Positions 12,103-64,000 of a stretch of DNA of 64,000 nucleotides are shown here, piece by piece. A program made the translations under genes and the position numbers. The stretch comes from Nitrospirota bacterium (GTDB lineage: Bacteria; Nitrospirota; Leptospirillia; Leptospirillales; Leptospirillaceae). The stretch is from contig JAJYYA010000038.1 of assembly GCA_021801345.1 (NCBI GenBank), forward strand, positions 1 through 64,000, given 5' to 3'. Each line of letters starts with the position of its first letter. Position 1 is the first letter of the stretch. The notes beneath the pieces were generated by a model that did no database searches, was not told the origin of the DNA, and worked only from the letters and a program-made list of their open reading frames with translations.

Positions 12103-15100
12103 ATGGCTTCCCGAGAAGCTCCGCGATCCGGACAGGGTGACTCTCCGGAACACTCCGAAAGACAGGGCTCGGGAACGCCTCCCCTGCGGGAGGTCGCCCG
12201 AAGCTATTTTCTCGCGCGATGGGTCGACGTTCTGGTCGTCGGGACCCTCCTCGTGGCCGGGGCGGCGCTCGCCTCCTTCGAGCTGACCCGATTTAAAGAG
12301 GCCAAGGCGCAGGTCGCAGAGGAGGCCCGGAGGACAGGGCTCGAGGTGGCGGGACGTTTTTCCGACACGCTCTCCCGGCGTTTCCTGGACCTGGGCTTCA
12401 TTGCCGCGTCCTTTACCGGGCGCTCCTCGACGATGCCTGGCCGGATGTTCAGACAGGAGGTCCGGGTCTACCTCGCTCTTCATCCGGCACTGGTCGACTT
12501 CGAAGTGCGAAAGGGCGAGGCGGGGCCAATCCTGTGGTCGACCCGGGCGGGAGGAGGTCCCCCGCTTCGCCCGGGAGGGACAAGGACGCAAGCGGACATT
12601 CCCCTCCTCTCAAACCCGACGCTTCTTCTCGGTTCGCCCTACGCCTCCTCCCGCATCGGCGCCTGGCTTCTTCCCCTCGGCATCCTTATCCCCTCCTCCC
12701 CCCTCTACGTTCGTACCCATGTCCGGCTCGACACGCTCCTTCCCGCACCCGTTCAGTCTCCCTTCCGCGTCCGGATGGGAGACAGCCGGAAACGTCCGGC
12801 TCCTTCGGCTTCCCTTGGGCAGGGCTCTTCCTCCCTAAGAGTTTCCGTTCCCTCCTATCCCTTTTTTTTCGAGGTCTCCTGGCCGGAGAAGACCTCCTTC
12901 CTCCGCTACCGGAGATCTGCCGACTTCCGTTGGATCCTGGAGTTCGGAGGACTCCTGCTTCTTTCGCTCATGGGGGGAGGGATCAGGATCCTGTCGCGCC
13001 GTCAGGGAAAGATCCTTCAACGATTCGCCGAGCTCTCCGCGCTCGATTTTGCGGTCTTCGAGGAGGCAGGGGCGCTGGGGCTCGTGATCGGGGAGGACGG
13101 CCGGATTCTCCGGATGAACCGGTCGGCCCGGGAGTTCACCGGCCTCCCCCCGGAGGCTCTCCCCGCCACGCCCTATTATTGGGAAAGGTTTATTCCGGAG
13201 GAGGAGGTTCCGGAGGTCCACGCTCTTTTCGAGCGCCTCAAAACGTCGGCGTCGTCCGGGGAGTACGAGAACCATTGGGTCCGTCCGTCGGGGGAGCGCC
13301 GGCTCTTCCGCTGGATTCTCACGGTGATCGGCGAGGCAGGCGATCGCACTGTCGTCAAGATGGGGCTCGACATTACCGAACGCGAACGGCTGGCCGGACT
13401 TCTTCGGGAAAAAAACGACAGGCTGGAAGAGCTTCTGTCCTACAACATTCTCCGGGGGAAGCTTGCGGAGGCCGTTGCCGCCGCCTCCGGAGAAGGCGCT
13501 CTTCTCGAGTCCTTCTGCGCCCTCTCGATGGAGGTTCCGGGGGTGGTCCTGGCCTGGGTGGGGATGCCCGACGAGGTGACGGGGGTGTTCTCCGTCCTGG
13601 CCGCCTCCGGGGCGACCGGCTATCTCGAAGGGGTCCGTATCTCGGCTCGGGAGGAGGACCCCGCCGGCCGGGGAGTGTCGGGCCGGGCCTGGAGGGCGGG
13701 GCAGTCCGCTTTCAACGACTCCTTCGACAAAAGCCCTTCGATGCAGCCCTGGAGGGAGCGGGCGAAGTCGTTTGGGATCGCGGCGAGCGCGACCGTTCCC
13801 ATCCGGAAGGGGGGTCGGCTCTATGCCCTTCTCACCGTCTATCTCGACCACGAGGAGGTGTTTTCCCTGGAGCTTCGGTCGATCCTCGAGGCGATCGGGG
13901 CGAGCCTCTCCTCCGGTCTTGACCGGATCGGTCTCATGGAGCGGGAGAGGGAGGCCCGGGCGTTAAGCGAGGCGCTCATTTCCAATGCCGCCGCGGGGGT
14001 CGACCTCGTGCGCTATCCTGAGCGCGTGGTGGTGGAGGCCAACGAAGCCTTTCTCAGGATCTTCGGCTTTTCTTCGAAGGACGAGATCGTCGGTCAATCG
14101 GTGCGGAGGCTCTACTTCGACGACGAGGGATGGGCCCTTGTGGGATCGATCGCCTCCCGGGCCCTGGCGGAAGGGTCGGCCGTCGCCCGGAACGTCTCCT
14201 TCCGGAGGCGCTCCGACGGGAAGAAGATGTGGGCCGATGTCGCGGCCCACAAGGTTCCCGGCGAGACCCACGACCTCCTGGTCTGGACGGTGGTGGACGT
14301 GACGGACAATCACCGGCTCGAGCTTGAGGTGGAGCGGACTTCGCGTTTTCGGAACCTTCTGGCCCAGGTTGGCCGGAGGATGGGGGAGATGCGGGAGGAG
14401 GAGGGACTCCTGCAGGAGCTTTGCGAGATGTCCGTCAAGTACGGGGAGGTCGATCTTGCCTGGGCGGGGGTGCCCGACAAGGACGGCCGGGTCCACTTTG
14501 TGGGGGGAGCCGGCGAGACCGGCTATCTCGACGGGCTCTCGATTACGATCGACGAGAGATCTCCCGCAGGAGACGGCCCGGCCGGGCGGACGTGGCGCTC
14601 CCGTGAGCCCTCCTTCAACATCGACCTGGCCCTGGTCCTTGCCGGGAGATCCAATGCGGATCGGGCGGCCGGCTTCGGCTTCCGGAGCCTGGCAATTCTT
14701 CCGATCCTCCGGGGGGGAAGCCCCTGGGGGCTCCTGACCTTCTATATGAAGGAGGAGGAAGGTTTCGACGCCTCGCTTCAGGCCCTTCTCCGGGAGATGG
14801 CGCGGATGATCTCCGGGGGGCTCGACCGCCTCGACGAGGAGCGACGGCTGCGGATCCTCTCGAGCGCGATCGCCTCCGTGGGCGAGGGGGTGGCAATCAG
14901 CGACCCGGAGGGGCGGGTGCTCTTTGTAAACGGGGCCTTTACTGCCATCACAGGCTATTCCTTTGACGAGATGTTGGAGAACAACTGCCGGATCCTCCAG
15001 GGGGAGGAGACCGACCCCGGGACGGTGGAGGCGATCCGGGCGGCGATCCGGAGCGGGTCGTCCTTCCAGGGCCAGATCAAAAACTACAAAAAGGACGGGA

Positions 15101-16890
15101 GCCCTTTTTGGAACATGCTCTCGATCTCTCCGGTGCGCGACGAGAGCGGGAGGCTCGTCGAGTTTGTGGGAGTCCAGCGGGACGTCAGCGAGGTCGTGGC
15201 GATCTCGCGAAGGCTTGAGCACGAATCTCTTCACGACCGTCTGACCGGCCTTCCCAACAGGAGGTCTCTCGACCATGCCTTCGAGATGGCCTTTGGACGG
15301 TCAATGCGTTACCGATGGCCGCTTGCGGTCGTGATGATCGATCTCGACGGCTTCAAGCCGGTCAACGACTCCTTTGGACATGAGGTCGGGGACCGTCTTC
15401 TCGTCGCGATGGGAGAGCGCCTGGTCGGGGTGCTCCGGAAGACCGACTTTCTCGCGCGCCTCGGCGGAGACGAGTTCGTTCTCCTGGTCGAAAACTATGC
15501 TGGGACGACTGAGCTTCTGGATGTTCTCCGACGGGTCGAGGAGGCGGCGACCGGGGAGTTCCGACTTCCGGGAGGGGAGACGCTACGGGTCGGGATTTCG
15601 ATGGGGGTGGCGACGACCTCCGGGGGAAACCCCGAGAGCCAGGAAAGCCCCGACGCGCTCCTGCGGCTGGCCGACTTGGCTCTGTACGAGAGCAAGGCCC
15701 ACAAGGCTGACCGTGAGGTTCCCTGGGTGCTCTACGGGGAGGGGGTGAGGGTCCGCAAGAACGAGGCGCAGAGTCTTCTCGCGGAAGGCGCTCTCGAAGT
15801 CTCCTACCAGCCGATCCTGAGCGTGGCGACGCAGACGATCGTGGGGGTCGAGGCTCTGGCCAGACTCAGAAGGGGCGACGGGAGCCTTCTTCTTCCGGGA
15901 GAGTTTCTTGGGGAGATGTCCTCGGACGACCTCTTTGAGCTCTCCCGGCAAGTGATCGAACGGGTCCTAGATGAGATGCCCAGGCTCTCTGAAGCCGCTC
16001 CCGAGCTCTGGGTCTCGGTCAACATCGACCCCGGGTCGGTCTCGGAGAAGGGCGTTGGTATCTTGAGAGGGATGCTCGAGGGGGCGAAGATGTCACCGTC
16101 TCGGCTCTTCCTCGAAATTCTGGAGGCCCGGGAGTTCGGCGAGACGAAGGACGCGCTCGGGCTCCTTTATCGGCTGAAAGCTCTGGGCATCCGGCTCGCC
16201 ATGGACGATGTCGGAAGCGCCTACTCCTCGCTTTTGCGGCTCAAGGAGCTCCCCGTCGACAAGGTGAAGCTCGACCAGGGGTTCATCCGCACGATCGACC
16301 AGAATCCCCGGGACCTTCATTTTGTGGGGGCGGTCCAGGAACTCGTGAGCCGGATGGGGTTGGCCCTCGTCGTGGAGGGGGTGGAGTCGGAGAGCGTCCG
16401 GGATGCCATGGAGGCCATGGGGATCGACCTTCTCCAGGGATACGCCATCTCCGTTCCCGTCCCCCTCGAAGGCATCCGGAGCTTTTTGCAAGGCTTTCCC
16501 CGGGAGCCTCACCCGTACCCCCGGACCCTCTTCGGGCTTTATGCCATTGCGTTGTCGCTCCATGGCCGGATGAGCCGCAGCGTCAGGCAGAGCCCCTCCC
16601 TCTTCGACCCAAGGCTCCTCGCGGATGTTTCGAACTGCCCGGTGGAGGAGGCGATCGAGAGGGTGGGGATCGGGCGTGATTCGGAGATCGAGAGCCGTCA
16701 CGAGGAGTATCACAGGCAGATGGCCGCCTTCGTCCGCTCCATTAAACACTACGGGCGCGTCACGGAGGTGGTTGACCGCGCGTTTGCACTGGCGGGGGAG
16801 GCGATGCTTGACGCCATCCTCGCGGAGTACCGGAAGAAAAGCGGAGCCTTTCCGTCCGGGACCGGTGGGGGCTCCCGACTCGGGGACTAG
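12103..16890 (+). CDS. Membrane PAS-GAF-PAS-GAF-LOV-like-GGDEF-EAL c-di-GMP protein
   Basis: 1595 residues. Order: TM1 (about 40-58), periplasmic sensor region, TM2 (277-296), PAS (313-427), GAF (450-608), PAS (622-742), GAF (755-910), LOV-like PAS (918-1030), GGDEF (1043-1205), EAL (1225-1455) and a C-terminal helical domain (about 1475-1570). GGDEF (1121-1125) and the inhibitory RKTD site (1112-1115) are intact. EAL residues Glu1250, the DD pair in LAMDDVGSAYSS, VVEGVE and LLQGYA are conserved, so both synthesis and hydrolysis of c-di-GMP are possible. The third PAS has NCRILQ (Cys962), NYKKDGSPFWN and VGVQRDV, the LOV flavin-site pattern. The C-terminus has His1487, Cys1512, His1533 and His1537 in CZB-like spacing. 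The two GAF domains look like an internal duplication. It lies 9 bases after pheT. Confidence 0.93.
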   Translation: MASREAPRSGQGDSPEHSERQGSGTPPLREVARSYFLARWVDVLVVGTLLVAGAALASFELTRFKEAKAQVAEEARRTGLEVAGRFSDTLSRRFLDLGFIAASFTGRSSTMPGRMFRQEVRVYLALHPALVDFEVRKGEAGPILWSTRAGGGPPLRPGGTRTQADIPLLSNPTLLLGSPYASSRIGAWLLPLGILIPSSPLYVRTHVRLDTLLPAPVQSPFRVRMGDSRKRPAPSASLGQGSSSLRVSVPSYPFFFEVSWPEKTSFLRYRRSADFRWILEFGGLLLLSLMGGGIRILSRRQGKILQRFAELSALDFAVFEEAGALGLVIGEDGRILRMNRSAREFTGLPPEALPATPYYWERFIPEEEVPEVHALFERLKTSASSGEYENHWVRPSGERRLFRWILTVIGEAGDRTVVKMGLDITERERLAGLLREKNDRLEELLSYNILRGKLAEAVAAASGEGALLESFCALSMEVPGVVLAWVGMPDEVTGVFSVLAASGATGYLEGVRISAREEDPAGRGVSGRAWRAGQSAFNDSFDKSPSMQPWRERAKSFGIAASATVPIRKGGRLYALLTVYLDHEEVFSLELRSILEAIGASLSSGLDRIGLMEREREARALSEALISNAAAGVDLVRYPERVVVEANEAFLRIFGFSSKDEIVGQSVRRLYFDDEGWALVGSIASRALAEGSAVARNVSFRRRSDGKKMWADVAAHKVPGETHDLLVWTVVDVTDNHRLELEVERTSRFRNLLAQVGRRMGEMREEEGLLQELCEMSVKYGEVDLAWAGVPDKDGRVHFVGGAGETGYLDGLSITIDERSPAGDGPAGRTWRSREPSFNIDLALVLAGRSNADRAAGFGFRSLAILPILRGGSPWGLLTFYMKEEEGFDASLQALLREMARMISGGLDRLDEERRLRILSSAIASVGEGVAISDPEGRVLFVNGAFTAITGYSFDEMLENNCRILQGEETDPGTVEAIRAAIRSGSSFQGQIKNYKKDGSPFWNMLSISPVRDESGRLVEFVGVQRDVSEVVAISRRLEHESLHDRLTGLPNRRSLDHAFEMAFGRSMRYRWPLAVVMIDLDGFKPVNDSFGHEVGDRLLVAMGERLVGVLRKTDFLARLGGDEFVLLVENYAGTTELLDVLRRVEEAATGEFRLPGGETLRVGISMGVATTSGGNPESQESPDALLRLADLALYESKAHKADREVPWVLYGEGVRVRKNEAQSLLAEGALEVSYQPILSVATQTIVGVEALARLRRGDGSLLLPGEFLGEMSSDDLFELSRQVIERVLDEMPRLSEAAPELWVSVNIDPGSVSEKGVGILRGMLEGAKMSPSRLFLEILEAREFGETKDALGLLYRLKALGIRLAMDDVGSAYSSLLRLKELPVDKVKLDQGFIRTIDQNPRDLHFVGAVQELVSRMGLALVVEGVESESVRDAMEAMGIDLLQGYAISVPVPLEGIRSFLQGFPREPHPYPRTLFGLYAIALSLHGRMSRSVRQSPSLFDPRLLADVSNCPVEEAIERVGIGRDSEIESRHEEYHRQMAAFVRSIKHYGRVTEVVDRAFALAGEAMLDAILAEYRKKSGAFPSGTGGGSRLGD

Positions 16891-49605: not shown

Positions 49606-52600
49606 ATGGATGCGAAAGAACCGAAAGCCGACCCTTCCTTCCCCTGTCCTCCCTCCTTTTTCTACGAAGAGTCCGATCAGAGTCTCTTTATTCTCGATGC
49701 GACAGGGATTCTCGTCTCTGCAAACCCGTCCTTTCTTCGCGAGACCGGGTATGCGCCGGAGGAGATTGTCGGCACGTCCTTTCGCCTGTGGTGCGAGCCC
49801 GGCTCGGGGAGACTTCCGGCCTGCGGAGAAAAAAGCGTTTGGGAAGGTACGTGTAAAAGGGCCGACGGGTCGACCTTATATTCGGAAATCGTTCTCTCCG
49901 GCCGATTGGCCGGAGAGAGGGAAATCGTGGTCGGCCTTCTTCTCGACCGTTCGGGGAGAAAGAAACAGGAAGAGGAGGCCGTTCGTCTCGTCACGCTCAA
50001 CCGTCTGCTTGCCACATCGGCGGTCTACATGTCTGAAGAGCACTCCGAGGACGAGCTGTTTTCTGCCCTGTGTGCCCATCTCGAAAAAATCGGGGGATTT
50101 CCTCTCGTTTGGGCCGGACGTCCTGATCGGGAGGGGACCTTCACTCCGCTGGCCTTCTCCGGACTCTGGGAGAAAATCCGTCCGCTCCGCTTCTCGTCAA
50201 GGGAGGATCGTCCGGGAGGGCGCTCTCTTGCCGGACGGGTCTTCCGCACGGGGGCGCCCGTTTTTGTCGCCGATCTCCCGTCTTACGCAAGGGAATCGGG
50301 AGAAGCGGAATGGATCGAGGCGATCGCCGCTTCGGGCTTTCGCACGGGATCTTTTCTCCCTGTTTTTCGGGGAGGACAGCCTTATGCAGTCGTCTGTCTT
50401 TATTCCTTTTCCCCCGCATCCCTCTGCCCGCTTCTTGAAGAGATTCTCCTGACTCTTGTTCAGACCCTCTCGCGGGTCCTCGACAGGATCGACATGCGGT
50501 CCCGTGAGCGCGAAGGGGATCTTCTGAGAACGATACTTTTCGAGCATTCCCCTTCCGGGATCGGAATGGTGCAGGGAGAGCGCATCGTATACGCCAACCC
50601 TGTCCTTGCAGAGATTTTCGGCTATCCCGATCCCGGCGCGATGAAAGGTCTCCCGCTTCGGACTCTTTGGGAGAGCCCGGGGGAGGATCGCAGGATCGAA
50701 GAGGCCCTGTCCGGGACAAATCTTTCCCGACGGAGTCATTTTGTGCCGGAGATCCACGGGAAGCGTCTGGACGGGAGCCTTCTTGTTCTCGACGTCTCCG
50801 TTGCCTCGGTCAGACTCGATCGCGAGTTGACGGTCGTCCTGACGGCAAACGATGTCACCGAGCGTGTCAGGCAGTCTCGTAAAAGGGCGCGGATCCTTCA
50901 TCTGGGGGGCGTGCTTTTCGACCTTCGCCGGGAGATAGAGCAGGCGGGAGAGGAGGGAACCCTACTCCAGTCCCTGTGCAACAGTCTCGTTTGGGAGGGG
51001 GGATTTGATACGGCGGCCTTCTGGTCTCGGGGGATGGAACGCTTTCTCTGTCTTTCCGAGGTCAGGGTCGACCGGGTCGACGGCGAGGGGGAATACCATG
51101 TGCCCTCTCTGGAGGAAAAGATTCCCGAGGGCCTGCTCGAGGCGATTCGAAGAAGCTGCGAGGAAGGGGTCCCCTTTTTTGGAAAGGCAGAGCCGGCATC
51201 AAAGGGGGGCGCTCCAGAGGGAGGGGGATCCGGGGAGGATGCGTGTGGGGGAGGGCTCTTCCTGGAGTCTGTGTCATCGGCCCGAATGGAAGCGGAGCTG
51301 GCGCTTCTTCCTGTGCCGAGAGGAGGGCGGGCCTGGGCTGTGCTCGTTCTGACCTCCCCGGGAGCGGACACCTGGGAGCCGGAGGTGCGGGAGATCCTCT
51401 CCGGAATGATCGAAAGCCTCTCGCTGGCGCTCGACCGGAGAGACCTCCGGCGCTCGGAACGCGAGATCGGATCTCTCCAGAGAGCCATCCTGGAACATTC
51501 GCAGTCGGGCATCATTATGGCTGCCGGACGGGAGATCACCTATGTCAATCCCCGCCTCGTGAAAATTTTTGGTTACGATGGACCCGAAGAGCTTCTGGGG
51601 AAAAATTCCCGGATTCTCTACCGCACGCAGGAGGAGTACGAGCGGGTTGGGGCGCTTCTTTTTCCAAAGATTTACGAAGGGATACCGGTCTTCGTCCAGG
51701 ATATCGCCGCCATCAGAAAGGATGGATCCCCCCTGTGGATAGATCTCTACGATGTCATGGCGGATGTGGAGGGAAGACCGACCGTCATTGCCACCTTGAC
51801 CGACGTGACCGATCGCCACAATGAGGAGCTCCGGCTGACGATGGTCGCCCGCTTCAGGGGGCTTCTGGCCGAGGTCAGAAAGATTGCGGCCGTCGGAGAA
51901 GAGTCGGACATGCTTCGCGATGTCCTTTCGCATGTGGAGAAGGAAGGAGGATTCGACTTCGTGGGACTCCTTCGTCCGGACGGACGGGGAGGATTTTCTT
52001 GCGAGGAGGGGGAATGGCCTTCCGAACTCCTTGACACACTTGCCCCGGAAAAGTTGTCCTCCTTTTTGCAGTCCGTCGAAGGGGGCCGTGCCTGGTGGGG
52101 GCCGGAGGAGGCCAAAGGGGAGAAGACTTCCCCGTCCTTTGCCGCCCTCCCCCTCCTGCGGAGAGGACGCGTCTGGGGGATTCTTTTTCTCTCGAAAAAG
52201 GATCCGACGGTCATTTCTCCCGATATCCGGGAGATTTTGGAGGAGATCGGGAGAACTCTCTCCTACCAGCTCGATCGCCGGGACGCCGAGGCCCGGGAGA
52301 GAGAGCTTTCATCCCTGACTTCGGCGATCATGGGAAATGCCCGTGTGGGCTTCGTCCTGATCGATCTCTCGAGCCGCACGCTCCTGCACGTCAACGGCCA
52401 CCATCTCGAAGAGCTCGGGTATGGTGCAGACTTTCCGATTGAGGGAAAGCCGGCCGGTTTGTTGCTGGCCGACGAGGAGGAGGTTCGCCACGTAAACGAG
52501 GCGGTGGCCCTGGCGCAAAAAGAGGGGCGGGAATGGGTCAGTCTTGTCAACGTCCGGCTTCGCCATCGGGAGGGGGCGGTCATTCTTTTCGACCTCTTTG

Positions 52601-54192
52601 GCCATTGGCTCGAGCATGGGGGATCTTCGCGCTTTCTCTGGACTGCCGTCAACGCCACAGAGAGAAACCGTCTTCAGATGCGCATCGAGCATGAGGCCAC
52701 CCACGACAGCCTCACGGGGCTTCCCAACAGGCGGGCGCTCGAACATCATCTCGGGATGGCGGTCGCCCGAGCCAGACGGTCGGGAGGAACCCTTATGCTG
52801 GGGCTTCTCGACCTCGACGACTTCAAGCCGGTGAACGATCTTTATGGTCATGAGGCGGGGGATTGTCTTCTTCGGGAGTTCTCCGGACGGGCTCGGAGAC
52901 TCTTGCGCGAATCGGACTTTCTCTGCCGCCTTGGAGGAGACGAGTTCGTTGTGGTTTTGGAGATTTTCGAGAAAGATTCCGAAAGAATGTGGCGCGAAGT
53001 CTGTGTTGCGATGGACCGCCTCCATCAGGCGGTGGAAAGTCCCTTCGAGGTCATGCCTGGGCGTTTTGCCCGGGTATGGATGACGATGGGAGTGGCCCTT
53101 ACCCCCGAAGGGGGAGAGAGCCCGGACGCCCTTCTTCGAGAGGCCGATCATGTTTTGTATGCACTCAAGGCGGAAAAAGGAAGGCGAAGCCGCTGGTGGG
53201 GGAGGGGAAAGGATATCGGAGAGGGGACGATCGCCAAAAACAGTACGGAAGAGAGATTCTCAGAGTTCGGGGGACCTGCCGGGGAGCTTCTCGAACGAAT
53301 GGCGCCCCTTGTTAGGGAGGTAACCCGCCTCTTTGTCGAGAGGTTTTACGAGGATCTCGGCTTGGAGCCCGCGGCCCGGAGAATCCTCGATCGGCTCGAC
53401 AGCGCAGACATGGAATCTCTCAAGCTCTCCCAGGGGGGCCATCTCTCCTTTCTGCTGTCGCCCGGGACGACGGCGGAGGAGATTCGGAAAAGGGCAGGGC
53501 ACCTCGGGGAGATCCACGCGCTCTATGGGGTCGACCTCTCCGTTTTGCTCTTTGCCAAGACGCTGTATGGAAAGATCTTTACCTCGGCGCTGGGGGAGTC
53601 TCATCTTTCCGGGCTCGACCGGACCCGTCTCCAGATGATTCTCGAGGAGAGGCTTGGTCTTGATATCCGCCACCAGGCCGAGGCGGGGGCGCGCATTCAG
53701 AGGGCTTACAGCGAGATTCTCTTGCGCCCTGTCTCTCGTTTTGAGTCCGCACCTCTTGTCGGAGAGGAGGAGCTTCGCGCCCTGGCGGCTCTCCCGGGAA
53801 TGACCGGGGCGGCCCTTGTCGTTTTCGGACGGACGGGGAAGGGGACGATTAATGCTTCTCCGGACTCCTTTGAGGGAGTCGTCCGAATGTGTGGGGATCT
53901 GCTTGAGACGGCCATGGAGCGCCGCTCTCTCCAGATTGGGAAGTGTCCTGGAGGTGAAGAAGGGAAAGCGACACCCCTCTCTCTTGCCGCGCTTCCCATT
54001 TTGGGTCCGGGGCTCAGCCGGCCAGCGGCTCGCGTCCAGCCCCTTCCTGCAACTCTTGTGCTGGGTGGGGTCTATCCTCGACAGTTCAAGTCGGACTGGC
54101 TCCGGCACTTCCTGCAGGGTCTCGCATGGCGCTGGGGGGTCCTCCTCGAAGGTGCTCCGGAGGGGTCGTTTTCTTTCGATGGGGACGGATAG
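49606..54192 (+). CDS. PAS/GAF-GGDEF-globin c-di-GMP protein
   Basis: 1528 residues with TATGGAGG before the ATG and no transmembrane helix. Order: PAS (15-125), GAF (128-300), PAS (305-425), GAF (430-620), PAS (625-745), GAF (750-900), PAS (905-1020), GGDEF (1030-1200), globin-like (1222-1368), GAF-like tail (1385-1515). GGDEF at 1110-1114 with inhibitory RESD at 1101-1104, so synthesis of c-di-GMP is expected. The globin segment has GHLGEIHALYGV with His1304 in the place of the haem-binding His of globin-coupled sensors (IHAxxGV). Globin sensors are usually N-terminal; here the globin follows the cyclase. No EAL domain. Confidence 0.92.
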   Translation: MDAKEPKADPSFPCPPSFFYEESDQSLFILDATGILVSANPSFLRETGYAPEEIVGTSFRLWCEPGSGRLPACGEKSVWEGTCKRADGSTLYSEIVLSGRLAGEREIVVGLLLDRSGRKKQEEEAVRLVTLNRLLATSAVYMSEEHSEDELFSALCAHLEKIGGFPLVWAGRPDREGTFTPLAFSGLWEKIRPLRFSSREDRPGGRSLAGRVFRTGAPVFVADLPSYARESGEAEWIEAIAASGFRTGSFLPVFRGGQPYAVVCLYSFSPASLCPLLEEILLTLVQTLSRVLDRIDMRSREREGDLLRTILFEHSPSGIGMVQGERIVYANPVLAEIFGYPDPGAMKGLPLRTLWESPGEDRRIEEALSGTNLSRRSHFVPEIHGKRLDGSLLVLDVSVASVRLDRELTVVLTANDVTERVRQSRKRARILHLGGVLFDLRREIEQAGEEGTLLQSLCNSLVWEGGFDTAAFWSRGMERFLCLSEVRVDRVDGEGEYHVPSLEEKIPEGLLEAIRRSCEEGVPFFGKAEPASKGGAPEGGGSGEDACGGGLFLESVSSARMEAELALLPVPRGGRAWAVLVLTSPGADTWEPEVREILSGMIESLSLALDRRDLRRSEREIGSLQRAILEHSQSGIIMAAGREITYVNPRLVKIFGYDGPEELLGKNSRILYRTQEEYERVGALLFPKIYEGIPVFVQDIAAIRKDGSPLWIDLYDVMADVEGRPTVIATLTDVTDRHNEELRLTMVARFRGLLAEVRKIAAVGEESDMLRDVLSHVEKEGGFDFVGLLRPDGRGGFSCEEGEWPSELLDTLAPEKLSSFLQSVEGGRAWWGPEEAKGEKTSPSFAALPLLRRGRVWGILFLSKKDPTVISPDIREILEEIGRTLSYQLDRRDAEARERELSSLTSAIMGNARVGFVLIDLSSRTLLHVNGHHLEELGYGADFPIEGKPAGLLLADEEEVRHVNEAVALAQKEGREWVSLVNVRLRHREGAVILFDLFGHWLEHGGSSRFLWTAVNATERNRLQMRIEHEATHDSLTGLPNRRALEHHLGMAVARARRSGGTLMLGLLDLDDFKPVNDLYGHEAGDCLLREFSGRARRLLRESDFLCRLGGDEFVVVLEIFEKDSERMWREVCVAMDRLHQAVESPFEVMPGRFARVWMTMGVALTPEGGESPDALLREADHVLYALKAEKGRRSRWWGRGKDIGEGTIAKNSTEERFSEFGGPAGELLERMAPLVREVTRLFVERFYEDLGLEPAARRILDRLDSADMESLKLSQGGHLSFLLSPGTTAEEIRKRAGHLGEIHALYGVDLSVLLFAKTLYGKIFTSALGESHLSGLDRTRLQMILEERLGLDIRHQAEAGARIQRAYSEILLRPVSRFESAPLVGEEELRALAALPGMTGAALVVFGRTGKGTINASPDSFEGVVRMCGDLLETAMERRSLQIGKCPGGEEGKATPLSLAALPILGPGLSRPAARVQPLPATLVLGGVYPRQFKSDWLRHFLQGLAWRWGVLLEGAPEGSFSFDGDG

Positions 54193-54425: not shown

Positions 54426-56729
54426 GTGCCTGAAAAAAAGAGACGACGACGGAGACGGTCCGGTGGGTCCGGGGCGTCCGGGAGTGAACCTGCGGTGACG
54501 GAGGCTCCTCCAGACTCTCCCTTGGCATGGCGAGAACGCATCTTGAAGGCGTTGGAGGATTCTTCCGAAAATATTCTGTCGCTCGAAACCCTTCTCAGGC
54601 GTCTTCTCTCGAAAAAAGACCGGAACCATCGACCCGATGCCGAGGCGGCACTCGACCTTCTGATCGCCTCCCGCGAGGTGGTGCGTCTTCCCGACACGCG
54701 TCTGGCTCTCCCCGCACGACTCCCCTCTCTGACGGGGCGCCTTGATGCCAACAGGGACGGATACGGGTTTGTGATCGATCCCGAAGGCAAGAAGGATGTC
54801 TTTGTGCCGGCCCATGCGCTCTCGGGAGCGATCGATGGCGACACTGTCGTGTGCCATGTGGCGGGGGAGGATGCCAAGGGCCGTCGCGAGGGGGTCGTCC
54901 TGCAGGTTCTGGCCCATGGTCGGACAACCTTCCCCGGATTGCTTCTTTCGACGTCCGAGGGATGGTTCGTCAAGCCGAAGGATGCCCGGATCCGCACCCT
55001 GTTCCGGGTGGAGGATCCCCCGTCGGATCTAGTCGCCGACAACATCGTGATCCTGGCGGTGACCGTCTATCCTTCCGGACCTTCCGGGCCTTCCGGGCCT
55101 TCCGGGCCCTCCGGTTCGGGAGAAGGATCGGGCCCTTCGGGCCGGATCCTTTCCGTTCTCGGAGCAGACGGGGATCCGGCGATCGATACCGATCTTGTCA
55201 TTGCCTCTTTCGGGTTCCCCACCGCCTTCCCCTCAGAGGTGGAGGCCGAGGCCCATCTTCGGGCAGAGACCGTTCCCATTCTCCCCGACGCCGAACGGCG
55301 GGATTTCCGGGCACTTGAGATTGTGACCATCGATGGAGATAGCGCAAAAGACTTCGACGATGCGATCTCTTTCGAGGAGGAGGCCGACGGGTCGGTGACG
55401 CTCGGGATTCATATCGCCGACGTCTCCGCCTATGTTCTTCCCGGTTCGGCCCTTGACCGGGAGGGATTCTCCCGGGCGACGAGCGTCTATTTCCCCGATC
55501 GGGTGCTCCCCATGTTCCCCGAGGTCCTCTCGAACGGGGTCCTCTCTTTAAACCCCGATACGGACAGGCTGGCCCGCTCCGTGACGGCACGGATCGACTC
55601 CTCCGGGAAGATCCTCTCCTGGACCCTCGACCGTTCCGTGATCCAAAGCCGCAAGCGCATGACCTACTCGGAGGTCCACCGGGCCCTGACCGGCGACCCT
55701 TCGGAAGAGTACCGTTCCTTCGTTCCCCGCCTCCTCGGGATGTGGCGGGTGGCGTCTCTTCTCAGAAAAAGAAGAATGGCCCGGGGAAGTCTCGACTTCG
55801 ACCTTCCCGAACCGGAGATCGTCCTCGATCTTCGCGGCGAGCCGGTCGATATCCTGCGATCTCCCCGCTACCTTTCCCACCAGCTGATCGAGGAGTTCAT
55901 GCTCCTTGCGAACACCCTCGTGGCGACCCGTCTCAAGGAGCGGCTCGGCATGGCCCTGTTCCGGGCCCACGAGACCCCTTCTCCGGAGCGGATCGAGAAT
56001 CTTTACTCCTTCCTGGCCTCACTGGGACTTCCCTTTACGAGGCCGGAGACGGTGACTCCGAAGGATCTCTCCCGGATCCTCGAGGAGACCAAGGGCTCTC
56101 CCCTCGAACATCCGGTTCACTACTCGGTTCTCAGGTCCCTGAAGCAGGCCCGGTACGATCCGGCTCCCTTGGGCCACTTCGGGCTCGCCTTTCCCGACTA
56201 TACTCATTTTACCTCGCCCATCCGGCGCTACCCGGATCTGATCGTCCACCGCCTCCTCGATCTTGCCTCGCCGGGGGCCATGGAAAAGCTCCTTCCGGCC
56301 AGTCTCTCGGCGGTGGCCCAGCACTGTTCCGAGCGGGAGAGAAAGTCGACCGAGGCCGAGCGTATGGCCATCGACTACAAGAAGGTCCGATTCATCTCGC
56401 GCCATCTCGGAGAAAGCTTCGATGGACGGATTACGGGCGTGGCCTCGTTCGGTCTCTTTGTCGAGCTCACTCCGTTTTTTGTGGAGGGACTGATTCCGAT
56501 TCATCAACTGGGCAAGGACTATTACGAATACAGGGACGACAGGCACCAGATCAAGGGAGCCCGGAGCGGGCGGACATTCTCTGTGGGGGATGCCGTTCGT
56601 GTAACGGTGGCCAAGGTGGACTTCCAGAGGCTGAGGTGCGACTTTGTCCTCGAGGAGGAGGCCGGGAATCTTTCGGAAGAGAGTCGGTCCCCTTCAGGTC
56701 GGCGTCGTTCCGGCCGAAGAGGGAGATAG
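54426..56729 (+). CDS. rnr: Ribonuclease R
   Basis: 767 residues, GTG start with AGAGGG upstream. A basic N-terminus (PEKKRRRRRRSGG) precedes a winged-helix region, cold-shock domains, the RNB catalytic domain (DGDSAKDFDDAISFE with the acidic metal ligands; SRATSVYFPDRVLPMFPEVLSN; HFTSPIRRYPDLIVHRLL) and an S1 domain (FDGRITGVASFGLFVEL). Processive 3'-5' exoribonuclease for structured RNA. A low-complexity GPSG repeat (about residues 216-240) coded by a 9-base tandem repeat interrupts the region before the RNB domain. The basic end RRRSGRRGR is typical. Confidence 0.96.
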   Translation: MPEKKRRRRRRSGGSGASGSEPAVTEAPPDSPLAWRERILKALEDSSENILSLETLLRRLLSKKDRNHRPDAEAALDLLIASREVVRLPDTRLALPARLPSLTGRLDANRDGYGFVIDPEGKKDVFVPAHALSGAIDGDTVVCHVAGEDAKGRREGVVLQVLAHGRTTFPGLLLSTSEGWFVKPKDARIRTLFRVEDPPSDLVADNIVILAVTVYPSGPSGPSGPSGPSGSGEGSGPSGRILSVLGADGDPAIDTDLVIASFGFPTAFPSEVEAEAHLRAETVPILPDAERRDFRALEIVTIDGDSAKDFDDAISFEEEADGSVTLGIHIADVSAYVLPGSALDREGFSRATSVYFPDRVLPMFPEVLSNGVLSLNPDTDRLARSVTARIDSSGKILSWTLDRSVIQSRKRMTYSEVHRALTGDPSEEYRSFVPRLLGMWRVASLLRKRRMARGSLDFDLPEPEIVLDLRGEPVDILRSPRYLSHQLIEEFMLLANTLVATRLKERLGMALFRAHETPSPERIENLYSFLASLGLPFTRPETVTPKDLSRILEETKGSPLEHPVHYSVLRSLKQARYDPAPLGHFGLAFPDYTHFTSPIRRYPDLIVHRLLDLASPGAMEKLLPASLSAVAQHCSERERKSTEAERMAIDYKKVRFISRHLGESFDGRITGVASFGLFVELTPFFVEGLIPIHQLGKDYYEYRDDRHQIKGARSGRTFSVGDAVRVTVAKVDFQRLRCDFVLEEEAGNLSEESRSPSGRRRSGRRGR
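55071..55115 (+). repeat. 9-base tandem repeat inside rnr
   Basis: Five units of CCTTCCGGG-type sequence (55071, 55080, 55089, 55098, 55107), first and last with base changes. In frame, encoding Pro-Ser-Gly repeats in the RNase R linker. Unit number can vary without frameshift. Confidence 0.85.
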
Positions 56730-60328: not shown

Positions 60329-63300
60329 TTAAAGGTCCTGGGGGGACTCCTTCCGGATCTTTTCGGCGATCCATGATTTGAGATTTTCCCGGAAGAGGGG
60401 GCGGCTTTCGGGGTCGAGATGGATCCCCTCATGCCAGAGAAGCGGCAGGGATCCGGGGCCGGCCCGGGCTGTCAGATAGGCGTGAAGGGGGCAATCGGCC
60501 GGCTCTCCTAGCGGGCGGGTTCCACGGGAGTCGTTCTTCCACAGATAGGCCAGGGCTCCCGAGGCGCTCTTGATGACAGGCTCTCCTGCCGGAATCCGAA
60601 AACGGTCGATAAAGGCAGGGATCTCGTCGGAAGGCATGGGACGGGCCAGGGCAAAGCCTTGTCCGTAGCGGGCTCCGAGGATTCTGGCCACATCGACGAG
60701 GTCGGGGTGGCCCAACCCTTCGATGACGACATGGTGGTTGAAGTCCCGTCCAAGTTCGACGATGGCGCCGACCAGGGCGATGGTCTCGAGGGGAGAGGAG
60801 AAGAAGCGGAAGAGAAGCCCCTGGTCCACCTTGATCGTGTCGAAGGGGACGGAGGCCAGTCTTTCGAGGGTGCTGTACCCCGAGCCCAGGTCGTCGATGG
60901 AAAGCTTGACCCCCTCGGCGAGGATGCGGCGGATTCCCTCCGTCTGGGTCCGGGGATCCATGTACTGGTTTTCGAGGAGCTCGAGGGTCAGGCGGGAGGG
61001 GGCGATCCCATGGCGTTCGAGGGGCTCCCGGACCCACCGCGAACAGCGGTCGTCGGCCAGAACATGGGGAGGGAGGTTGAGAGAGAGCGTCAGAAAGAGC
61101 CCCTGGCTGTCCCAGCGCGAAAGTTTCTCGGCGGCCATTTCAAGACCCTCCCGGAAGAGCCAGATCAGGTCGCTCTCGCCCAGAAGGGGAAGGAAGGCTC
61201 CCGGAGAGAGGACCTTTCCGTCCGGGCGTTCGAGCCGTGCCAGCGCCTCGACGCGGGTGGCCGTCCCGCTTTCGAAGTCGACCACCGGCTGAAAGTAAAT
61301 CCTGAGGCCCCCCTCGAGAAGATTTCGCCTGAGCTGGCGCGAGGACTCCTCTTCAAGTGTCCGTGAGGAGATGAGGGAACGACTACAAAGTTCGTTCCAG
61401 CGCCGGGAGAGATTCTTGATGAATCGTCCCGCCCAGGCCGAGTCGAACTGGTTCGGCCAGGCGCCGGCCAGAAACAGAATGGCCGAGGGCCGGCCTGTCG
61501 TATCGTTGACGGGCAAAAAGAGGGAGGAGCACCATTTCTCCGGATGAGTCCGGTCTTTTGGCGACGGGTTCTCGCAGTGCAGGAAGATCGGGCGATTTTC
61601 GTTCCAGGCGGAGGTCAGTGCCCTGAGAAGTTGGGGGTCCTCCCAGGGGAAGGCGATGTGCGAGGCGGCTTCGGCGACAAAGCCACCCTGGCGGTCGGGG
61701 CGCAGAAAGAGCACCCCCGTCATGCCGGGGAGCTCTTCGAGTGCGGAGATCTCCCGGGAGAGAATGTCGGGCCAGGGAGTCGCCGAAGAGGCGGCGGAGG
61801 TGGTCAGGCAGTCCGAATAGCGCTCTACTGTCTTCCCGTAGGCTTCGACCTGCCGGCGGATGTCCTCGTCGAGGCGGCTCTCGAAGAGGAGAAGGAGGCG
61901 GAGCCGGTCGGAGACCGAGAGAGGGGCCTTCGCGATCTTTTCGAAAAAGATAGTGCTGTAGAGGGTCTTGGCCGAGAGGATCAGCGGCACCGGAACGCCT
62001 ACCAGGGCGTGGATTGCCCCGAGGTTGGAGGAGACCTCGAGAATCTCTTCGTTTCTGGTGTCGGGGGAGAGAAGAAGTCGAAGATGGCGCGTCTGGGAGT
62101 CGACGAGTCTGTCCCTTCTTTCAGGGGAGAGGCGCTCGAGAATCGTGCGCGCCTGGGGATCGGCGGCCAGACGGTCGTAGAAGATCCCGGCAAACTGCCG
62201 GGTGACCTCGTCGAAAAGGGGCTGAAAGCGCTCGAGAAGGGAGAGGGCCTGGGGACCGTAAATATCGAATGTCTCCTCTCTTTCCGGAGCGACCGGCTCT
62301 TCCCGGGCGATGGTCCACCAGCGGTTTCGTGCGCCTTTTTCCTCCTTCGACCGATACATCGCAAGGTCGGCCTTCCGAAGGAGGACGTCCGGCGTCTCGC
62401 CGTCGGCGGGAAAGAGTGCGACCCCCATCGACATGCCGATGGTCGCCTGTCGGTCGGGGGCGATCCCGAAAGGAGCCTCCACCGCCTGGTGCAGGCGGGC
62501 GATGGCGGTGCCGAGGGCGGACTCGAGGGCCGCCGGGCTCTCTCCGTCGAGGGACTCGAAGACGACGACAAACTCGTCTCCCGCCAGCCGCCCGAAGAAG
62601 TCGGTCTCCCGGGTGAGGGCCCGGCCCCGGGCGGCGAATTCCCGGAGAAGCCGGTCCCCGCTCTCGTGTCCCCAGGTGTCGTTGACCGGCTTGAAGTCGT
62701 CGAGGTCGATGAAGCCTACGGCCAGGGGGCGGCCGGTCCGCTTTGCCCGGGCCAGTGCCGTGTTCAAATGGATGTCCAGGGCGTTCCGGTTCGGAAGTCC
62801 CGTCAGTTTGTCGTGAAGAGACGCGCGCTCGAACCGCTTCGAGGCTTCGACGATCTCCGTCACGTCCCGGTGGATGCCGACGAACTCCCGGATCGCGTTC
62901 GAGCCGTCGACGATGGGGTTGATGGTGAGAAGGTCCCAGAAGGTCGAGCCGTCCTTTTTGTAGAACAGAAGTGTGTTCTGGAAGGGCGTCCCGGTCCGGA
63001 AGGTCTCCTCGATGCGGCCGAGCGCCGCCGGGTCGGTCTCGGGTCCGGCGAGAAGATAGGGCGAGACCCCCACGAGTTCTTCCCGGGTCCTTCCCAGGAG
63101 GCGTTCCATTGCGGCGTTGGCGTAAAGGATCGTCATGTCCGTGCTGACGACGAGGACCCCCTCCCCGACCGAGGCGAGGGCGCTGACGAGCCGTTTCTGT
63201 TCGGCCATGCGGTCGAGCCGGTCGAGCCCTTCGGAGAGGCTTCGCCCCAGCTCGCGAAGGATTTGCGAGAGATCCTCGTCAAAGGCATCGGTCTGCCGGT

Positions 63301-64000
63301 CGAGAAAGGAGAGGATCGCAAAGGGCGCTCCTCCTCTCGTCACCGGAACCGAGGCGGTCGTGCGTATTCCGTTCTCTATGACAGTCTTCTCCCAGGATGA
63401 GGGAATTTCCTTTTCTCCGGGATCGGACAGGGTGTTGATATGGATCTCTCCGCTTCTCCAGGCCTCTCCCGCCGCACCCCGGCCTTCGGGGCGGGAGGGG
63501 TCGACCGAAAGCCTCAACCCGTCGATCCAGGAGGTCTGCCCGGAGCTGTGGCCGATCGAAAACCACCCCTCGGGATCGGGGCGTCCGATCCAGGCGATCT
63601 CGGCGATCCCCTTCTCCGTCGTCAGTCGGCAGACGCCGTCGAGAAGCTCGTTTTCGTCTTTGGCCGAGGCGGCAAGGCGTCGAAACTCGGCCAGAAGACG
63701 GGTGAACAGGGAGAGTCGGGCGAGCCGCCTCTCCTGGTTGTGGCGGACGGTGACGTCGGTGATGGTGAAGATCACCGTCCGGTCGTCTCCCAGATCGAGA
63801 GTCGAACCGTAAATATCGACCCAGAGGAGGGATCCGTCCTTTTTTCTGGCGCGGACGTCGGGAACAAAAACGCCCTCGGTCTCCAGAATCCTGGGATAGA
63901 AGAGTGCGCCCACCCGCAGATACTCCTCTTGCGAATCATACAAATAACTGGCGTCGCGTCCCGTCATCTCCCGGGCATCGTATCCGAAGAGGCGCACAAG
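60329..64000 (-). CDS. PAS-GAF-PAS-GGDEF-globin-GAF-EAL c-di-GMP protein (5' end outside window)
   Basis: At least 1222 residues inside the window; the frame runs off the right edge inside a PAS domain, so the N-terminus is missing (residue numbers count from 63997). Order: partial PAS (1-95), GAF (105-262), LOV-like PAS (265-385), GGDEF (390-555) with motif AGDEF (472-476) and inhibitory RETD (463-466), globin-like domain (575-720; SNLGAIHALVGV, proximal His663), GAF-like (735-865), EAL (885-1125) and a C-terminal helical domain. EAL catalytic set is intact (Glu917, ELLENQ, SIDDLGSGYSTLE, IKVDQG, VIEGLG, YGQGFAL). The PAS lacks the LOV Cys and Gln. The end has Cys1169, His1189 and His1193 (CPLHAYL...WHEGIH), CZB-like. 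Confidence 0.92.
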   Translation of the reverse strand, partial: LVRLFGYDAREMTGRDASYLYDSQEEYLRVGALFYPRILETEGVFVPDVRARKKDGSLLWVDIYGSTLDLGDDRTVIFTITDVTVRHNQERRLARLSLFTRLLAEFRRLAASAKDENELLDGVCRLTTEKGIAEIAWIGRPDPEGWFSIGHSSGQTSWIDGLRLSVDPSRPEGRGAAGEAWRSGEIHINTLSDPGEKEIPSSWEKTVIENGIRTTASVPVTRGGAPFAILSFLDRQTDAFDEDLSQILRELGRSLSEGLDRLDRMAEQKRLVSALASVGEGVLVVSTDMTILYANAAMERLLGRTREELVGVSPYLLAGPETDPAALGRIEETFRTGTPFQNTLLFYKKDGSTFWDLLTINPIVDGSNAIREFVGIHRDVTEIVEASKRFERASLHDKLTGLPNRNALDIHLNTALARAKRTGRPLAVGFIDLDDFKPVNDTWGHESGDRLLREFAARGRALTRETDFFGRLAGDEFVVVFESLDGESPAALESALGTAIARLHQAVEAPFGIAPDRQATIGMSMGVALFPADGETPDVLLRKADLAMYRSKEEKGARNRWWTIAREEPVAPEREETFDIYGPQALSLLERFQPLFDEVTRQFAGIFYDRLAADPQARTILERLSPERRDRLVDSQTRHLRLLLSPDTRNEEILEVSSNLGAIHALVGVPVPLILSAKTLYSTIFFEKIAKAPLSVSDRLRLLLLFESRLDEDIRRQVEAYGKTVERYSDCLTTSAASSATPWPDILSREISALEELPGMTGVLFLRPDRQGGFVAEAASHIAFPWEDPQLLRALTSAWNENRPIFLHCENPSPKDRTHPEKWCSSLFLPVNDTTGRPSAILFLAGAWPNQFDSAWAGRFIKNLSRRWNELCSRSLISSRTLEEESSRQLRRNLLEGGLRIYFQPVVDFESGTATRVEALARLERPDGKVLSPGAFLPLLGESDLIWLFREGLEMAAEKLSRWDSQGLFLTLSLNLPPHVLADDRCSRWVREPLERHGIAPSRLTLELLENQYMDPRTQTEGIRRILAEGVKLSIDDLGSGYSTLERLASVPFDTIKVDQGLLFRFFSSPLETIALVGAIVELGRDFNHHVVIEGLGHPDLVDVARILGARYGQGFALARPMPSDEIPAFIDRFRIPAGEPVIKSASGALAYLWKNDSRGTRPLGEPADCPLHAYLTARAGPGSLPLLWHEGIHLDPESRPLFRENLKSWIAEKIRKESPQDL

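Follow-up and report, generated by a model that had tools for sequence, protein, structure and literature searches.

The window analysed here, a 64,000-nucleotide stretch of a Nitrospirota genome assembly, carries a gene for a 1528-residue protein in which an array of PAS and GAF domains is followed by a GGDEF domain, a sensor globin and a GAF-like tail (Table 1). The diguanylate cyclase active site of this protein is intact, and its RxxD inhibitory site is present. Pfam detects no EAL domain in the reading frame, nor was one found in the 3 kb downstream, so the protein is not a bifunctional GGDEF-EAL enzyme. The hydropathy maximum over 19 residues is 1.54, without a clear membrane span. A mis-joined frame is ruled out, since the gene is one open frame without internal stops and its orthologue L047 has the same domain order. 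A chance open reading frame is ruled out by the 81%-identical globin of a syntenic orthologue in another species and by a globin dN/dS of 0.17. The next gene appears, by our own reading of its sequence, to encode an RNase R-like protein; a 9-base repeat in it (55071-55114, plus strand, 4.9 copies) encodes a Gly-Pro-Ser run. The window also holds a 1595-aa PAS/GAF-GGDEF-EAL protein without a Pfam globin match (12103-16890, plus strand) and, at its end, part of a second gene for a globin placed after a GGDEF domain.

Table 1. Features of the globin-bearing genes in the window
Feature	Position	Strand	Basis
Whole gene: PAS/GAF array - GGDEF - globin - GAF-like tail, 1528 aa	49606..54192	+	single open frame; orthologue in L047
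N-terminal GAF domain, residues 145-293, within the upstream sensor array	50038..50484	+	Pfam GAF_2
PAS domain, residues 312-422	50539..50871	+	Pfam PAS_4
PAS domain, residues 641-736	51526..51813	+	best stretch by Pfam PAS_9
GGDEF diguanylate cyclase domain, residues 1031-1192	52696..53181	+	Pfam E 2.1e-37
I-site RESD (RxxD), residues 1101-1104, 5 residues ahead of the active-site motif	52906..52917	+	
Active-site motif GGDEF, residues 1110-1114	52933..52947	+	
GGDEF-globin linker, low model confidence, without a middle domain	53182..53259	+	pLDDT; 15 residues between profile ends
Sensor globin domain, residues ~1219-1373	53260..53724	+	PF11563; model helices; DosC globin Z 17.9
Tyr1248, aligned with DosC Tyr43 (B10)	53347..53349	+	profile alignment to 4zva
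Gln1276, aligned with DosC Met69 (E11 position)	53431..53433	+	profile alignment
His1304, proximal haem ligand by alignment	53515..53517	+	67/67 aligned globins; HemAT/DosC alignment
Degenerate GAF-like tail, residues 1381-1510	53746..54135	+	GAF matches of paralogue tails; fold match
Globin of the second window protein, GGDEF-globin-GAF-EAL	61868..62248	-	Pfam; gene 60329-64000 runs off the window edge

The original prediction had described a globin-sensor pattern in this protein and proposed a profile search, which bears the description out. Pfam Protoglobin (PF11563) matches residues 1219-1362 with 27.6 bits in the whole protein, and with 34.2 bits (E 3e-8) when the globin stretch is taken alone, the cut-off being 25. 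No NCBIfam globin model matches the stretch, and phmmer with the single window sequence returns HemAT as its sole, weak match (E 0.33). A profile of eight paralogues matches the V. vulnificus RsbR globin (E 2e-9), the Geobacter sulfurreducens globin 2w31, HemAT and DosC. A chance globin match is ruled out, as all eight paralogues match PF11563 and the domain is under purifying selection. In a model of the globin plus tail (mean pLDDT 78.6), the best structural match is the DosC globin of E. coli (Z 17.9 over 140 residues, rmsd 1.9 Å), and the predicted fold is the 3-over-3 fold of sensor globins and protoglobins. The His of the IHALYGV motif is residue 1304, as had been claimed; in profile alignments it falls on the proximal (F8) His of HemAT and DosC, and all 67 aligned globins have it. 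We infer that the window globin is a haem sensor of the DosC/HemAT type, which would bind haem and exert control by O2.

The DosC numbering used for the distal pocket (Tyr43, Met69) follows passages of PMC5549716, and the E11 label for the Gln1276 column is taken from His66(E11) of GsGCS in a part of PMC4476040. Tyr1248 is present in 43 of the 67 aligned globins; the position holds Y, F, M or T across the family, and in the EAL-less proteins Tyr (14 of 20) or Phe or Thr (6 of 20). Such a variable distal pocket would fit a globin that senses redox, haem or NO, or that is enzymatic, rather than an O2 sensor, and sensor globins bind several ligands. We consider this rather improbable, however, as the window protein's pair of Tyr(B10) and Gln at E11 would be favourable to bound O2, and the E11 Gln is present in 57 of 61 family globins (17/20 in EAL-less proteins, 28/29 in GGDEF-globin-GAF-EAL and 12/12 in globin-GAF-EAL proteins).

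An AlphaFold2 model of the GGDEF-globin-tail part, built on a shallow alignment of three sequences (the window protein, L047 and the second window protein), contains a GGDEF domain, an all-helical globin at model residues 207-358 and an alpha/beta tail. Foldseek on this three-domain model returned GGDEF structures. The pLDDT is below 50 at model residues 177-207, which correspond to protein residues 1192-1222, and the GGDEF-globin linker of about 30 residues is probably flexible. The middle domain (a pi-helix with His-Lys) is absent between GGDEF and globin, where 15 residues separate the profile ends and the linker is modelled with low confidence. Canonical globin cyclases have this middle domain; as the window protein lacks it, its control would need another geometry. 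The length of the junction is nearly fixed, with 10-28 residues, mostly 12-16, between profile ends in L048-L097 and the paralogues of the own genome. A Trp pair precedes the linker in the own-genome proteins examined. In the globin-plus-tail model, the long H helix of the globin (model residues 131-168) enters the GAF-like tail and points away from the GGDEF domain. The tail half (model residues 157-318) matches GAF-like structures with Z 13.7-14.1, and the GAF-like tail of the original prediction is thereby upheld at the level of a predicted fold; Pfam matches GAF in three of eight aligned tails and finds nothing in the window tail alone. The tail scores mostly worse in EAL-less proteins.

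PF11563 was found nine times in the 2.6-Mb assembly, and seven of the nine globins come after a GGDEF domain, one of these in a gene split by a frameshift. Two such proteins, the window protein and L010, are without EAL. Four intact genes (L011, L012, L013 and L015) encode GGDEF-globin-GAF-EAL proteins, as does L014, which a frameshift within GGDEF divides in two; there (L014:2410-4629, minus strand, and upstream) the reading passes from frame 1 to frame 3, and a sequencing error and a broken gene are both possible. One globin-GAF-EAL protein (L016, 812 aa) and one globin-PAS-histidine kinase (L009) are also encoded. The second window protein is complete in L013 (1845 aa), where its GGDEF motif reads AGDEF. 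At the C-terminus of the EAL-bearing paralogues L011-L016 is a tail that carries an invariant Cys, within a CPL motif, and an HxxxH, metal-site-like, in six of six cases and with no Pfam match; identity of this Cys/His/His tail with CZB was rejected, as Pfam gave no CZB match.

The window gene and an EAL-bearing paralogue are on opposite strands, separated by 8.5 kb, and their group members in genome G003, L078 and L067, are likewise on opposite strands at about 10 kb from each other. This proximity would suit a globin that acts in trans, pairing with globins in sister proteins of the GGDEF-globin-GAF-EAL design; in such mixed dimers a single gas signal would govern both cyclase and phosphodiesterase. 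GCS globins do dimerise. Mixed signalling teams held together by globin and middle domains are also proposed in passages of PMC5549716. Nevertheless, of the four genomes that carry a window-type gene, only two show the linkage (elsewhere the genes fall on separate or short contigs), and the two globins of the window are just 42% identical, which makes action in trans quite improbable in our estimate. The window's genome has eight globins of this type. We give little credence to the idea that the family globins are exchangeable dimerisation modules, through which DGC-only, PDE-only and bifunctional paralogues form mixed oligomers and the choice of partner sets the c-di-GMP balance; were it true, gas ligation would control how much c-di-GMP is made and degraded through the partners chosen, rather than through a signal along one chain.

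Relatives were sought in 41 genomes with the profile of the eight own globins. It matched 20 of them, namely the own genome, all 13 others of the same genus, five of seven others of the same family and one of 20 further off. The 68 matches comprise 8 own and 60 others; 58 of the latter were taken, two fragments on one G005 contig being left out, and their domains were marked with profiles made from own-genome proteins. These 58 and nine own sequences make up the 67 aligned globins, and the tree omits six (four distant, one histidine-kinase globin and one cut short). Three designs share the globin-GAF module among the 61 globins of the tree set: GGDEF-globin-GAF-EAL (29), GGDEF-globin-GAF, which is the window type (20), and globin-GAF-EAL (12). 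The original reading of a DosC-type globin C-terminal to GGDEF and provided with a GAF-like tail therefore stands, but it missed that in most cases (29 of 49 GGDEF-globin rows) an EAL comes next and that the globin-GAF module is also N-terminal to EAL, including in stand-alone globin-GAF-EAL proteins. Since the last helix of the globin leads into the GAF-like tail, which precedes EAL in sister proteins, globin-GAF may be viewed as an EAL-type sensor module. Judging by these domain orders, it occupies the sensor position for EAL, and what the window type lacks is the EAL itself.

Of the 41 genomes, 17 have the GGDEF-then-globin order, and they all belong to one family. When 295 genomes across the phylum were searched, with up to the best 12 candidates scored per genome, at least 14 genomes outside the family gave a match. 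All 14 were inspected: none has a GGDEF before the globin, and in the five that have a GGDEF the globin comes first every time. An exact-pattern contig scan found one relative, on contig DAHXNG010000023.1 of a Nitrospirae MAG; relatives on plasmids or viral contigs were not found. G015, a family member on a single contig, carries one EAL-less GGDEF-globin protein, L090. As far as sequences can tell, the order is a retained design of the family and not an accident.

On the unrooted globin-plus-tail tree, in which long branches are flagged, EAL presence changes at least seven times and GGDEF presence at least twice; the starred branches alone force at least four EAL changes (GE and G_ labels). 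The window protein groups with three other EAL-less proteins, each of the four from a different species, at 100/100. One case is nested: L050, with EAL, stands beside L055 and L057, which have none. By our own reading EAL may have been lost in the window type, the nested case being the best support. The globin-GAF module could then be the leftover sensor of a lost EAL, now only an aid to folding or dimerisation that passes no gas signal to GGDEF. The repeated changes of EAL and the nested case are in line with this, as are the mostly lower-scoring tails of the EAL-less proteins and the relaxation of the tail, whose dN/dS between the window gene and L047 is 0.455, against 0.084 in GGDEF and 0.167 in the globin. 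However, none of the 20 EAL-less genes is followed by an EAL remnant (past two of these genes the contig extends only 364 and 601 bases further), so the loss lacks a direct trace. An alignment of the 20 EAL-less globins has 163 columns, of which 8 show no variation, including those of His1304, Gly1301, Gly1308, Phe1247 and Leu1272. Despite a lowest pairwise identity of 21%, all 20 EAL-less proteins keep the proximal His, and all keep the GGDEF motif and the RxxD I-site as well; some EAL-bearing relatives read SGDEF or AGDEF in place of GGDEF. This conservation argues that the EAL-less globin is not a dead passenger and, with the low dN/dS of the globin, makes a mere leftover unlikely.

The explanation that we prefer, and regard as probable, is that the window protein is a diguanylate cyclase, soluble and with several inputs, whose c-di-GMP synthesis is controlled at its C-terminal side by ligand binding to globin-GAF. 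The PAS/GAF array at the N-terminus would feed GGDEF from the usual side, and a DosC/HemAT-type haem globin with a GAF-like cap would be tethered behind it. O2 or another haem ligand on the globin would change c-di-GMP synthesis, since no EAL follows. The coupling may use globin dimerisation and direct globin-GGDEF contact over the flexible linker, with no continuous signalling helix. An oxygen signal acting back on GGDEF is plausible on the sequences because the haem ligand, the active site and the I-site are kept together in every EAL-less protein. Passages of PMC7033309 report that the isolated PccGCS globin in trans raises the activity of its cognate cyclase domain and that cross-links join globin and DGC. 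The same passages report that O2-dependence is lost without the middle domain, and control from the C-terminal side is weakened as a reading because the window protein lacks that domain. The H helix that leads away from GGDEF, the relaxed tail and the variable distal residues also count against it.

Signalling models for globin-coupled cyclases assume a globin ahead of the enzyme that acts via the middle domain. A globin behind the cyclase, with its haem ligand kept in every EAL-less copy, makes C-terminal control of GGDEF directly testable, and the repeated changes of EAL presence supply natural pairs with and without a phosphodiesterase. Heavy use of gas sensing in c-di-GMP control is indicated for a group that, by its presumed name, probably has the bioleaching leptospirilli as its cultured relatives.

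The definition of globin-coupled sensors in a part of PMC1457004 places the globin N-terminally and the output C-terminally, and general statements in the literature likewise put the haem sensor at the N-terminus, in agreement with the original prediction for known haem-globin cyclases. The window protein has the reverse order, the globin (1219-1373) coming after GGDEF (1031-1192), as first proposed. With DosC/YddV (DgcO), BpeGReg and PccGCS it shares the DosC-type globin fold, the proximal His, Tyr B10 and GGDEF with an I-site, but these proteins are ordered globin - middle domain - GGDEF, whereas the window protein runs GGDEF - short linker - globin - GAF-like tail. Acidithiobacillus, with its Protoglobin-GGDEF-EAL-CZB and GCS-EAL proteins, is likewise an acidophile rich in protoglobin c-di-GMP enzymes; compared by the description in passages of PMC6416229, these proteins have the protoglobin written first in their domain strings, unlike the window protein. 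The globin of VvRsbR (PDB 7o0i), the O2 sensor of the Vibrio vulnificus stressosome, is the top PDB sequence match of the family profile and has Gln at the same E-helix position, but it is N-terminal and coupled to a STAS output. An L. ferriphilum gene is named dosC in passages of PMC8357829 that do not give its domain order. No description of a globin behind GGDEF was recognised in the open-licence PMC literature, where parts of PMC10882959, PMC8846402, PMC4331095, PMC5772234, PMC2996932, PMC9237108 and PMC7231039 were also drawn on. Within the family, globin-GAF-EAL proteins such as L016 carry the same globin-GAF module with no GGDEF ahead and EAL behind, which is the sensor-first order. With ordinary parts in an unusual but conserved order, the window type is a new variant of globin-coupled c-di-GMP enzymes.
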